Shown: one piece after another, positions 36,548 to 40,809 of the stretch
Position numbering within the stretch: position 1 is the first letter of the stretch
Layout: the number at the start of each line of letters is the position of its first letter
Assembly (NCBI RefSeq): GCF_001995215.1
Contig: NZ_MUXN01000023.1
Span: forward strand, 104,748-168,747
Source of the DNA: Amycolatopsis azurea DSM 43854
GTDB lineage: Bacteria; Actinomycetota; Actinomycetes; Mycobacteriales; Pseudonocardiaceae
Length of the DNA stretch: 64,000 nucleotides
Direction: 5' to 3'
Notes under the pieces: generated by a model
The model's database searches: none
What the model was told of the DNA's origin: nothing
What the model saw: only the letters and a program-made list of their open reading frames with translations
Program-made: the position numbers and the translations under genes

Positions 36548-39478
36548 ATGACCGCTGATCGTTTACCCGATTCGGCGGAATCCGCCCTAACCCCCGGCGA
36601 TCCGAAACACCCCGGTCAGCGATCCCAGCTCAGCTTTTCCGTTCTCGGCCCGCTCGAGGCCGAGGTCGACGGCGTGCCCGTCCGGCTGGGCGGACGCCGT
36701 GAACAGCGCCTCCTCGCCGCCCTGCTGATCAACGCGGGCAGGCTGGTCCCGGTGTCGTACCTGATCGGCACGATGTGGCCGGAAGAGCCACCGAAGACCG
36801 CTGTCCGCCAGGTCAGCAACGCGATCGCGCGGCTGCGGCACGACCTCGGCGTGGCCCGGTCCGCCGTGGTCACCACCGGCTCCGCCTACCGGGTCGTCAC
36901 CAGCAGCGCCTCGGTCGACTCGGTCCGCTTCGAAGCGGACTACAACCAGGGCGCCGAGCTTCTGGCGGCCGGGCTGATCTCCCAGGCGGCCGCCAAGCTC
37001 GCGGACGCGCTCGCGCTCTGGCGCGGCCCGGCCTTCGACGGTCTCGAAGGCGACGCCATCGAGCAGACGGCGCGGAGACTCGACGAAGAACGCCTCGCCG
37101 CGTCCGAGCTCCTGATCGGCGCCCGGCTCCGGCTCGGCGAGACCGAAGCGGCCGCGCGGGAAGCCTTCGACCTGGCCGCCTGGCACCCCACTCGCGAGAC
37201 CCTCCAGGTCCTCACCATGCTGGCGCTCTACCGGGCGGGCCGCGGCGCCGACGCGCTCCGGACGTTCGACCGGACCAGGATCGCGCTCGCCGACGAACTC
37301 GGCGTCGACCCGAGCTCAGAACTGAGCACGCTCCACCAGCAGATCCTGCGCACCGACGCCGAGCTGATGCAGGACGGCGCCCTCGTCCGGTACGGCGTCG
37401 GCGGACTCCGGACCGGGATGGACACCGGCGGGCGCCGCGAGGACGCGGACGCGCAGAAGGCCCTCTTCCCCCGGCCCGCGCAGCTTCCCGCGGACCTCCC
37501 GGCGTTCGGCGGCCGCGCCGCGGAGCTGCGGACCGTCCTCGAAATCGGCCAGGACGACTCCTCGACGGGGCCGCGGCTGATCGCGATCGACGGGATGCCC
37601 GGCGTCGGCAAGACAGCGCTGGCCGTCCATTCCGCCCACCGGCTCGCCCCGCTGTTCCCCGACGGGCAGCTCTTCGTGAACCTCGAAGGGTTCTCACCGG
37701 CGGGCGACCCCGTCGACCCCGCGTCCGCGCTCGAAGCGCTGCTGCGGTCGCTCGGCATCCAGGGTTCGGACATCCCCGCCGGAACCGACCAGCGCGCGGC
37801 GTTGTTCCGCAGCTGCCTCGCCGGCAAACGGATGCTCGTGGTGCTGGACAACGCCATCGGGGCGACACAGGTGAGCCCGCTGTTGCCCGGTTCGGCGAGT
37901 TGCTGCGTGCTGATCACCAGCCGGACCCGGCTCGTGGACCTCGACGGCGCCGAACTGCTCTCCTTGGAACCGTTCAGCCGGGCCGACGCGGTGGACCTGC
38001 TGGGCCGGATCGTCGGGCCGTCCCGGTTGAAGCGGGAATCCCCCGACGCGGCGGACCAGGTCGCGAGCCTGTGCGGTGACCTTCCGCTCGCGCTGGCCGT
38101 CACGGCGAGCCGTCTGCGGGCACGGGCGTCCTGGACACTCGACTTCGTCGCCCGGCAGTTGCGGGACGAGCGGAACAGGTTCGGCGAGCTCACCGCGGGG
38201 GAACGCGACGTCGCGGGCGCTTTCCGAGTGTCCTATCTGAACTTGACCGAAACCGAGCGCCTGGTGTTCCGCCGGTTGAGCCATCACCCCGGTGCCGCGT
38301 TCGACCTTCACTCGACGGCGGCCCTGGCCGAAGTGGACCTCGGCGAGGCTCGCCGCCTGGCCGAACGCCTCGTCGACGTGAACCTGTTGCGGCAGCCGTC
38401 GATGGACCGGTACGAGATGCACGACCTCCTCCGCAGCTACGGGCGCGAACTCCTGCTCGCGGAGGAGCCCGAACACCAGCGCGAGGCGATGATGCGGCGG
38501 CTGTTCGACTACTACCGCAGCACCGTCGCGGCCGCGATGGACTTCATCGACCCGGACTCCGAAGACGAGCCGGGCGGCCTCGAAGTGCCGAAGAGCGAGT
38601 TCGGCCAGTACTTCGCCGACTACGACCAGGCCGCGAACTGGATGGACGCCCAATGGCAGAACGTCCTGCCGGTGGCCGTCGCGATGAACAACCATCAGCG
38701 CTACTCGGACCTCGTGCTCTTCTGCTCGGCGGTCTGGCGCTACTTCGACAACCGCGGCTACTACCGGCAGGCCAGGGAACTGGAGACCCTCGCCCTGTCC
38801 GCCGCGCGGGTCACCGGGAACGTGGTCCTCGAGTACCAGGCCCTGCACATGTACGCGCTGACCCTGTGGCGGCTCAACGAGTTCACCGAGGCGAACCGGC
38901 TGTTCAACGAGGTGTTCGAGCTGGCCTCGACCACCGGCGACGTGCGGATGCAGTGCCGGGCCAGGGGCAATTCGGGCGTCACCCACTGGCTCAAGGGCGA
39001 GTCCGACCAGGCGATCGAACACCTCGGCTGGGTCCGCGAGACCGCTCACACCCACGGCAGCGTGCTCATCGAAGCCCGCGCCCGGCACCGGATCGGGCTG
39101 ATCCACACCGAGAACAGTCGCTATGCGGAAGCCGCCGAGGAACTCGACCAGGCGCTGAGACTGGCCCACGAGAACGAATCACCCGATCTCGAGGCGGAAT
39201 GCCTTCTCGCTCTCGGTATCAATTCGCGTGCACTCGGCGATGGCGAACTCGCGGTCACCCAGTTCACGACCGCGATGGAAGTGCTCGAATCGACCGGGAA
39301 TCGCAGCATGCTGCCCATCGCCCACAAGGAGTTGGCGTCCGCTTTCGACATTCTCGGTGAGCACCCGAATGCGGAACGTCATCGCCGGTTCGCTTTACGC
39401 TTATACACCGATCTCGGCATCTTGGAGTCGCCCGAAGCTCGCGAACTCAAACAGCACTTGAACGATTACTCGGCGTAA
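36548..39478 (+). CDS. AfsR-like SARP regulator (OmpR-type DBD, BTAD, NB-ARC, TPR)
   Basis: 976 residues. Residues about 28-118 are an OmpR-type winged helix (LSFSVLGPLEAEVDG, REQRLLAALLINAGRLVPVSYL). Residues about 125-270 are the bacterial transcriptional activation domain (AADALALWRGPAFDGLEG, ADELGVDPSSELSTLHQQIL). An NB-ARC ATPase follows with P-loop IDGMPGVGKTALAVHSAHRL near residue 355, and the last 330 residues are TPR-like helices (HMYALTLWRLNEFTEANRLFNE). This is the full AfsR architecture, a pathway activator controlled by nucleotide and probably by a bound signal. It stands immediately before a peptide gene and a SagB-type gene and is probably their activator. Confidence 0.9.
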   Translation: MTADRLPDSAESALTPGDPKHPGQRSQLSFSVLGPLEAEVDGVPVRLGGRREQRLLAALLINAGRLVPVSYLIGTMWPEEPPKTAVRQVSNAIARLRHDLGVARSAVVTTGSAYRVVTSSASVDSVRFEADYNQGAELLAAGLISQAAAKLADALALWRGPAFDGLEGDAIEQTARRLDEERLAASELLIGARLRLGETEAAAREAFDLAAWHPTRETLQVLTMLALYRAGRGADALRTFDRTRIALADELGVDPSSELSTLHQQILRTDAELMQDGALVRYGVGGLRTGMDTGGRREDADAQKALFPRPAQLPADLPAFGGRAAELRTVLEIGQDDSSTGPRLIAIDGMPGVGKTALAVHSAHRLAPLFPDGQLFVNLEGFSPAGDPVDPASALEALLRSLGIQGSDIPAGTDQRAALFRSCLAGKRMLVVLDNAIGATQVSPLLPGSASCCVLITSRTRLVDLDGAELLSLEPFSRADAVDLLGRIVGPSRLKRESPDAADQVASLCGDLPLALAVTASRLRARASWTLDFVARQLRDERNRFGELTAGERDVAGAFRVSYLNLTETERLVFRRLSHHPGAAFDLHSTAALAEVDLGEARRLAERLVDVNLLRQPSMDRYEMHDLLRSYGRELLLAEEPEHQREAMMRRLFDYYRSTVAAAMDFIDPDSEDEPGGLEVPKSEFGQYFADYDQAANWMDAQWQNVLPVAVAMNNHQRYSDLVLFCSAVWRYFDNRGYYRQARELETLALSAARVTGNVVLEYQALHMYALTLWRLNEFTEANRLFNEVFELASTTGDVRMQCRARGNSGVTHWLKGESDQAIEHLGWVRETAHTHGSVLIEARARHRIGLIHTENSRYAEAAEELDQALRLAHENESPDLEAECLLALGINSRALGDGELAVTQFTTAMEVLESTGNRSMLPIAHKELASAFDILGEHPNAERHRRFALRLYTDLGILESPEARELKQHLNDYSA

Positions 39479-39490
39479 TTCTCCGTTTCG

Positions 39491-39532
39491 CTCCGGTACT
39501 CTGATGGCGTAGGTATATTCGCTTGACCGGAG
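39491..39532 (+). promoter_or_regulatory. Promoter with inverted repeat for the peptide/SagB genes
   Basis: TATATT (39514-39519) is a good -10; the -35 position 17 bp upstream is CTCCGG. CTCCGGT (39491-39497) and ACCGGAG (39526-39532) form a 7-bp inverted repeat bracketing the -10. A non-consensus -35 covered by a repeat fits an activator-dependent promoter, plausibly for the SARP. Confidence 0.5.
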
Positions 39533-39559
39533 TAACCGCTCACGGAGAGGATCGGCGAC

Positions 39560-39682
39560 ATGCATGATGAAGACGACGATGAGTTCTTGTACGAGCTCGA
39601 AGCGGAGTACAAGGCACAGAGCACCTGGGGCGGGTTCGAGCCGCCGCCGAACGGCGGGCCTCCTTTCCGTTCGCGACACTGA
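39560..39682 (+). CDS. 40-residue acidic peptide, candidate RiPP precursor
   Basis: A 41-codon gene with GGAGAGG (39544-39550) nine bases before ATG 39560. Residues 1-17 are strongly acidic (MHDEDDDEFLYELEAEY, nine Asp/Glu). The rest is Gly/Pro/aromatic-rich: STWGGFEPPPNGGPPF and a basic end RSRH. There is no cysteine; Ser21, Thr22 and Ser38 are the only hydroxyl side chains besides Tyr. An acidic leader followed by a Gly/Pro core, between a SARP regulator and a SagB-type dehydrogenase, is what a precursor of a modified peptide would look like. I do not recognise the sequence. It could instead be a small regulatory protein. Confidence 0.7.
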   Translation: MHDEDDDEFLYELEAEYKAQSTWGGFEPPPNGGPPFRSRH

Positions 39683-39735
39683 ATGACCTGAATTATTCTG
39701 AAAACATTACTGGGGACTGGGGCGCAAGACTTTCG

Positions 39736-40809
39736 ATGCTGGTAAGGGTTTCCTCTTGCGGAACGCTCTATTGGTCCGACGGTGACCTCGTCTGGGACGA
39801 TCACCTCGGACATCGCCAGCTCAAACTCGCCGAAGGAACTGAACGTGTCCTGCGATGGTTCAGTTCTTGGCGAGAACCGGAATCGATCCGTGAAGCGGAC
39901 GAAAATCCCGAGACAGGGGAAAGACTCGTCCGTATCGCGCGAGCGATGATCCGGTACGACGTGCTGGTGGTCAAAGGTTCTTCCCGGCGACAAAGGGAAG
40001 AAGAGATCCTTCGGGATTGGGGTCCTTGGGGAACGTCCGTGCGGGCGTTTCACTTCGGCACCCGCTCCTTGCGTGAGACCGAGTTCACGACCAGCGAAAT
40101 GACCGCGAAAACCTTGCTGGAGAAGGCGAAGGCCAGCCCTCCGCCTTCTCCGGTGAGGCCGTCGGGCGAATACGACGCGATAGCGCTGCCCGAGCCGTCA
40201 CCGGAGCAGGTGAACGCGATCGGACTCGGCGACGCGCTGAGCAAGCGCAGAAGCGTCCGCGAGTTCGGCGAAGAACCCATGCGGCTGCTCGATTTGAGCA
40301 CGCTGCTCACAGCGGCCCGGCCGACGAGGCCGGAAACTCATCCCGACATCCCCACCACCGGGAACATCTTCAAGACGAGCCCGTCGGGCGGGGCGAGGCA
40401 TCCGACCGAGGTGTACGTCTACGCCAGGAACGTCGAGGGCCTGGAACAGGGGATCTACCACTACGACGGCTTTCGGCACGGGCTCACGCCTCTGGACGGC
40501 AAAATCGACGACGACGAACTGGTCGCCTTGGCCGGCGATCAGCAGTGGACCGGGAACGCCGGCGCGCTGCTGATCTACACCAGTGTCATCGAGCGGAACC
40601 AGTGGAAGTATCCGGTGAGCCGGACCTACCGGGTGCTGCTGATGGACGTCGGGCACCTCAGCCAGACCGTCTACCTGCTGGCGACGGCACTCGGACTGAA
40701 CGTCACGTTCACCGCGGCGCTTCGCGACGAATTGGTCGAGGACCTTCTGGGGTGCGATCCGGCGAACGAACTGGTGCTCGGTATGTCGGTGCTCGGCACT
40801 CGCGTGTGA
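39736..40809 (+). CDS. SagB-type (nitroreductase-fold) peptide dehydrogenase
   Basis: 357 residues. Residues about 1-110 form a separate N-terminal domain with a winged-helix look (GTLYWSDGDLVWDDHLGH, LVRIARAMIRYDVLVVKG) that may bind a leader peptide. Residues about 160-357 are the FMN-binding nitroreductase fold: LGDALSKRRSVREFGEEPM, TSPSGGARHPTEVYVYARNV, GIYHYDGF, and LLMDVGHLSQTVYLLATALGL. SagB enzymes oxidise azoline rings to azoles in modified peptides. No YcaO cyclodehydratase or protease is adjacent, so the reaction here is open. It begins 53 bp after the peptide gene, in a stretch richer in A+T than the neighbourhood. Confidence 0.87.
   Translation: MLVRVSSCGTLYWSDGDLVWDDHLGHRQLKLAEGTERVLRWFSSWREPESIREADENPETGERLVRIARAMIRYDVLVVKGSSRRQREEEILRDWGPWGTSVRAFHFGTRSLRETEFTTSEMTAKTLLEKAKASPPPSPVRPSGEYDAIALPEPSPEQVNAIGLGDALSKRRSVREFGEEPMRLLDLSTLLTAARPTRPETHPDIPTTGNIFKTSPSGGARHPTEVYVYARNVEGLEQGIYHYDGFRHGLTPLDGKIDDDELVALAGDQQWTGNAGALLIYTSVIERNQWKYPVSRTYRVLLMDVGHLSQTVYLLATALGLNVTFTAALRDELVEDLLGCDPANELVLGMSVLGTRV

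Follow-up and report, generated by a model that had tools for sequence, protein, structure and literature searches.

A three-gene locus in Amycolatopsis azurea DSM 43854 encodes, in a row on one strand, a SARP regulator, a 40-aa peptide and a SagB-like dehydrogenase, with gaps of 81 and 53 bp. It lies in a 64,000-nt stretch of contig NZ_MUXN01000023.1 (the window, to which positions refer unless another contig or a locus is named). That this is a unit for a ribosomally synthesized and post-translationally modified peptide (RiPP) is well supported. The reading that we favour, with a probability of about 0.58, is a SARP-linked two-gene unit whose enzyme, fused to a RiPP recognition element (RRE), desaturates a residue of the peptide core without a YcaO partner, most likely at the Cα-Cβ bond of an aromatic residue. 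We infer the pairing of enzyme and substrate, the reaction, the target residue and the role of the SARP protein, the Cα-Cβ chemistry by analogy with a related enzyme.

A preliminary description of this DNA had reported a tiny gene with a good ribosome site between the regulator and the dehydrogenase, and re-reading of the open reading frames (ORFs) bore out all three genes, their coordinates, strand and spacing. The peptide gene (39560..39682, plus strand) encodes MHDEDDDEFLYELEAEYKAQSTWGGFEPPPNGGPPFRSRH, and GAGG, its likely ribosome site as read from the sequence (39547..39550, plus strand), stands 9 nt before the ATG. This peptide is real and under purifying selection. It was present in 29 of the 30 Amycolatopsis loci examined (two overlapping sets, with some genomes counted twice), always 39-40 aa long and at nearly constant spacing from the enzyme; the sole miss, G076, carries a different 32-aa peptide. 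The variants amounted to 19 distinct DNA alleles and 15 distinct proteins. Over 17 alleles of 123 nt, the pooled NG86 ratio of nonsynonymous to synonymous substitution rates (dN/dS) was 0.144 for the peptide and 0.131 for SagB; the wrong frames of the same 17 alleles gave 2.13 and 1.48. The short ORF is therefore both conserved beside SagB homologues and selected as a protein, two checks that the preliminary description had asked for.

Among the 15 distinct proteins, M1, E8, F9, L10, E12, E14, A15, E16 and Y17 are invariant in the N-terminal half, and W23, G24, F26, P29, P30, G32, P34, P35, F36 and R37 in the C-terminal half. From this conservation we place a putative core at residues 21-40 (39620..39679, plus strand), with a correspondingly provisional leader/core border. 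The window peptide had no match in Pfam or NCBIfam, nor had four representative peptides of the family in NCBIfam.

The third gene (39736..40809, plus strand) encodes a 357-aa SagB-like flavin mononucleotide (FMN) dehydrogenase. It matched Nitroreductase (PF00881) in Pfam and, in NCBIfam, TIGR03605 (SagB; 125 bits, above the cut-off of 78.4); its best NCBIfam match was TIGR04511, a putative peptide maturation dehydrogenase (163.4 bits, below the cut-off of 240). Profile, fold and motif evidence place the nitroreductase (NTR)/SagB domain at about residues 145-357 (40168..40806, plus strand), with WKY at 290-292. The extra N-terminal winged-helix-like domain noticed earlier is confidently predicted to be RRE-like (about residues 1-80; 39736..39975, plus strand), the model having a pLDDT of 94 and structural matches. 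The locus thus offers what is expected of an RRE-dependent RiPP pathway: a predicted RRE/PqqD-like domain and a linked precursor-like peptide under selection. The nearest named relative of the enzyme is in A. thailandensis (95%). Close orthologues (E <= 2e-218) occurred in 18 of 79 other genomes of the genus searched, with a 56% relative in one more (G076), and matches at E 1e-25 in 62 of 249 genomes of the window's family.

The phylogeny of NTR domains sets this enzyme apart from the YcaO-linked SagB proteins. In a tree of 61 domains, the 11 YcaO-linked rows split from all others (support 97/96), and they did so again, now as 12 rows, when L127, which has a YcaO-like match beside its enzyme and was omitted from the first tree, was added (93/93; 94% of 200 bootstrap trees). 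Of the 15 YcaO loci taken for the tree, four, including the window genome's own, were excluded for want of a long enough match; L084 and L085 are in neither tree. The window enzyme grouped on the YcaO-free side, together with the pfl/pos-type locus L035 of Pseudomonas fluorescens HK44, a long branch of unsure exact placement. BLAST scores of the window enzyme were 291 bits with L016, 152 with L035 and 105-149 with five other YcaO-free relatives, and 51-89 with the 11 YcaO-linked proteins.

The comparison with pfl suggests the chemistry. The papers cited here by PMC number were available in part, and what we take from them is limited to those parts. The nitroreductase domain of PflD makes Z-dehydrophenylalanine in a ribosomal peptide without YcaO (PMC12636437, a preprint), to its authors' knowledge the first dehydrophenylalanine in RiPPs; the same text calls nitroreductases without YcaO rare, functionally uncharacterised and perhaps able to form other dehydroamino acids. 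For the Os17 genome, with its likewise YcaO-free SagB-type domain, the available part of PMC7726476 states that homologues of sagA, sagC and sagD were not found. At L035 a 657-aa protein joins an MNIO-like part (NF050151, 93.9 bits, cut-off 400) to a SagB part (TIGR03605, 117 bits), beside a precursor ending AIFDTQQQQARMD and genes that fit GNAT and HEXXH by size only, being unscanned; this is the layout described for pfl/pos. The window enzyme is 38% identical to this PflD homologue over 265 residues. The two systems also differ: PflD is fused to an MNIO and accompanied by a HEXXH enzyme, a GNAT and a long precursor leader (PMC12636437), whereas the window has a stand-alone 357-aa enzyme with an RRE-like domain, a 40-aa peptide and a SARP gene, with neither MNIO fusion nor HEXXH partner among the scanned neighbours (Ku, YGGT, DUF222-HNH). 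The preliminary description had offered either a different oxidation or partner enzymes encoded elsewhere. We favour the former because the enzyme sides with YcaO-free nitroreductases and a pfl/pos-type domain makes dehydrophenylalanine; partners elsewhere we disfavour.

In the sequence of events that we propose, the SARP protein would switch the unit on. The 40-aa peptide would be the substrate, and its acidic N-terminal half, with F-L-x-E-x-E-A-E-Y, would act as a leader held by the N-terminal RRE-like domain, a contact suggested by fold and conservation. The FMN domain would then remove two hydrogens from the C-terminal core, with no YcaO step, probably across Cα-Cβ of an aromatic residue (W23 as first choice, F26 or F36 as second), to give a dehydro-aromatic residue with a loss of 2 Da. 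General or unlinked host functions would take care of cleavage and export.

The most serious alternative keeps the same RiPP unit and changes the oxidation, to a crosslink of aromatic, Arg or Pro residues or to the oxidation of proline or His. The nitroreductase fold serves many reactions, the core of the Amycolatopsis peptide has invariant Pro, Phe, Trp, Gly and Arg, and in related loci (E-type, below) many peptides centre on His. Yet the only YcaO-free RiPP nitroreductase domain whose product we found described forms a dehydroamino acid (PMC12636437), and an enzyme of the same fold is credited, in the title of 9exv, with C-C oxidation in cyclodipeptides; we consider another oxidation unlikely. 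Elsewhere in the nitroreductase family, TyzC desaturates N-acyl tyrosine (PMC12479983), and SagB-type enzymes are described from siderophore clusters (PMC7413640) and together with YcaO (PMC10783134).

Far less probable is a classical thiazole/oxazole-modified microcin or linear azole pathway whose YcaO partner lies elsewhere in the genome, for example on contig C21. With the SagB, McbC and ThcOx azoline dehydrogenases the window enzyme shares its fold and the WKY motif, but no YcaO is clustered with it and the peptide family has no conserved core Cys, Ser or Thr. The AlbAB cyclodipeptide oxidase differs in another way, acting on a free cyclodipeptide and not being known to have an RRE. Most alleles do have Ser or Thr at positions 21, 22 and 38; in A. 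pittospori, however, these positions are Q, Q and P, no Ser/Thr column is invariant among the 15 distinct proteins, and the absence of cysteine, noted earlier for the window peptide, holds for all of them, which speaks against a heterocycle at a fixed Ser, Thr or Cys.

The distribution of YcaO points the same way. The window genome has a single YcaO, on a different contig (C21:10958-11947, in a long ORF), and it adjoins a SagB-like match of its own at C21:13121 (C21:10958-13444 in G000; loci L001 and L194). YcaO was found in 39 of 52 genomes searched, and at about E 1e-101 or better in 8 of 9 Amycolatopsis genomes searched. In a comparison of 51 genomes with the enzyme family, each represented by a single enzyme, 13 had no YcaO at all, among them G822 and G842 (single contigs), G525 (two contigs) and G885, a draft of about 70 contigs that carries an A-type peptide (below). 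Many of these genomes are drafts, in which an enzyme may lie on a short contig, such as the 9,149 bases in G450. The nearest YcaO on the contig of an enzyme was 38 kb away. The earlier statement that no YcaO is adjacent is thus borne out, the possibility that one always lies in the same cluster is refuted, and a YcaO partner in trans was rejected as a general explanation.

The locus does not stand alone, being one kind within a wider enzyme family that spans at least five families of the class (f1, f5, f8, f31, f33). It had been described as a minimal, possibly undescribed locus, and the second part stands within the literature searched, where neither the SARP-peptide-SagB unit nor the F- and E-type peptides below were found, preprint servers and most subscription journals being outside coverage. 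A-type loci combine a short, often acidic peptide with the enzyme, so the short acidic ORF expected beside SagB is there, as only one of several peptide types. A SARP match (first 290 residues as query) occurred near the enzyme in Amycolatopsis L002-L011, in 10 of 25 other A-side loci (L072, L015, L157, L156, L160, L164-L168) and in one D-type locus (L022).

D-type loci, in Saccharothrix and kin (21 of 40 loci), have a conserved 40-aa peptide, mostly ending KKDD, and an ATP-grasp gene. The ATP-grasp cluster c2 was found in those 21 loci and in no Amycolatopsis locus (L002-L011), so that the Amycolatopsis unit lacks the mark of a graspetide pathway; the L016 protein scored 74 bits against TIGR04187, under the cut-off of 350. 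Downstream of the ATP-grasp/SagB unit in L016 and L019, by a few kb, are genes that we take, from motifs known to us, to resemble pqqB and other pqq genes. The D-type loci are probably the branch 6 ATP-grasp loci of a 2022 report (PMC8939145), which describes a SagB-like enzyme there, along with two new precursor clusters. The motif FE-x(2-4)-[DESA]-Y occurred in the leaders of 5 of 9 representative A- and D-type peptides, where shuffling predicts 0.14 and none of 20,000 shuffles reached that count, and the window peptide fits looser forms only (6/9, 0.55 expected; 7/9, 1.35 expected); this is a hint only, because the motif was picked after the peptides had been inspected.

F-type peptides (14 loci) are 23-34 aa long, with a conserved leader and a variable, aromatic-rich core, e.g., MRAISINARAFVRQDRKASRWHWRWEYK (L077); in 14 of them W, F and Y make up 27.6% of the core vs 1.0% of the leader. 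F-type enzyme matches at E 1e-60 occurred in 7 of 295 genomes of the genus of G393. E-type peptides (16 loci) have 19-24 aa, e.g., MAKLVVKVRRKKTRGNLLSNHPA (L075). An aromatic target would suit the Amycolatopsis and F-type peptides well, and the E-type (mostly His), L125, L015 and L193 poorly. In L075, L076, L078, L079 and L192, E-type peptides of 22-23 aa ending LLSNHPA or similar lie upstream of the enzyme; in L081 a homologue ending KLLSNHFA lies downstream, about 1.2 kb past the enzyme start. Translations read near E-type peptides resemble ABC metal/siderophore importers (L076, L078, L079) and an MFS carrier (L075, L078, L192), and one might guess at a metallophore-like product. Genes judged MFS-like, again from translations, come after the enzyme in L164-L168 and before it in some E-type loci, and Amycolatopsis has no such gene adjacent. 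In Microbispora (L012:8685-8933, on the contig of L118), a precursor-like 82-aa ORF has three imperfect repeats (FEVHQDDYTQPESAL..NHNE), which could yield several cores from one peptide, and a TPR protein stands between it and the enzyme.

A census counted upstream short ORFs with a ribosome site, whatever their identity with the named peptides, against 424 control genes with 200 nt free upstream. At score 6, 47 of 57 family loci qualified vs 32 of 424 controls (35 of 669 without the free-upstream condition), by group 10/10 in Amycolatopsis, 8/15 in A, 13/15 in F and 16/17 in E. At score 6.5 the counts were 35 of 57, with none of the ten Amycolatopsis loci left, and 8 of 424; at score 7 they were 33 of 57 and 7 of 424. 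The census omits the D-type loci, Microbispora (L012-L014, L118), L123, L127, L171 and L175-L178, and loci are not independent, L012/L118 and L015/L157 sharing contigs, as judged by length.

This variety of arrangements bears on another reading, in which translation of the short ORF would regulate sagB as an attenuator leader and the peptide would not be a substrate. Its place directly upstream of sagB across a small gap would fit, and the aromatic-rich F-type ORFs are reminiscent of Trp leader peptides. Selection, however, acts on the peptide sequence, and the Amycolatopsis peptide has one Trp only; the L081 homologue lies downstream of the enzyme, the Microbispora ORF has three repeats with another gene intervening, an ATP-grasp maturase-like gene intervenes in Saccharothrix kin, and the enzyme carries the predicted RRE-like domain. 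We regard an attenuator as highly unlikely. A decayed or neutral remnant without product would agree with the absence of nearby transporter and protease genes and with distant kin that look split, but is scarcely credible given dN/dS of 0.13-0.14 for both genes over 17 alleles.

Those distant kin (L175-L178, L171) have enzyme matches in pieces or without a clear peptide and are probably decayed copies. Further relatives, L039 and L041, adjoin TIGR04510 cyclases, as in the predicted TIGR04510/TIGR04511 peptide-modification systems of Pseudoxanthomonas and Stenotrophomonas, from which the window differs in its TIGR04511 score below 240, its SARP regulator and its much shorter peptide. Beside the L039 cyclase, a 104-aa ORF (L039:9169-9483, minus strand) ending TVIFNFEAGRIRTKLSKS is likely the precursor of that system. 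In L085 (G080:C5), about 4-4.5 kb upstream of the SagB-like match, stand three tandem ORFs of 37-40 aa whose leaders are nearly identical and whose tails are rich in Cys (e.g., ..PVCSSTCFVVDDEEE); they look like the precursor array of another peptide system.

The regulator (36548..39478, plus strand; 976 aa) is of AfsR type, with Trans_reg_C, BTAD, NB-ARC and TPR all over the Pfam cut-offs. Its score against the AfsR equivalog NF053617 (518.4 bits, cut-off 1430) assigns it, by sequence, to the SARP family and not to AfsR itself. The triplet is flanked by a Ku/YGGT pair on one side and a DUF222-HNH gene on the other, all on the minus strand. The promoter previously ascribed to the unit was not confirmed: a promoter and terminator scan found no plus-strand site by sigma-70 consensus, a null that says little because the host is a GC-rich actinobacterium.

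What is new here is a variant of the YcaO-free SagB/nitroreductase RiPP systems, one chemistry of which has been published as a preprint. A broader proposal, which we advance tentatively and at somewhat less than even odds, is a distinct RiPP class of Actinomycetota in which one RRE-fused, YcaO-independent FMN dehydrogenase desaturates aromatics in peptides of about 19-40 residues with at least three leader types: acidic and SARP-linked; MR-x-I-x-M-K-A-R-P-V-x-R-like with aromatic cores; and Arg/Lys-rich 22-mers often ending N-H-P-A or N-H-x. Its products would be dehydroTrp, dehydroPhe, dehydroTyr and perhaps dehydroHis. Dozens of enzyme-peptide pairs in the family, many of them with aromatic cores that vary, are suited to a single-enzyme mass-shift assay. 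If our reading is true, an RRE-bearing stand-alone nitroreductase and a tiny peptide would come close to the smallest peptide-modifying systems and would provide a ready catalyst for placing dehydro-aromatic residues.

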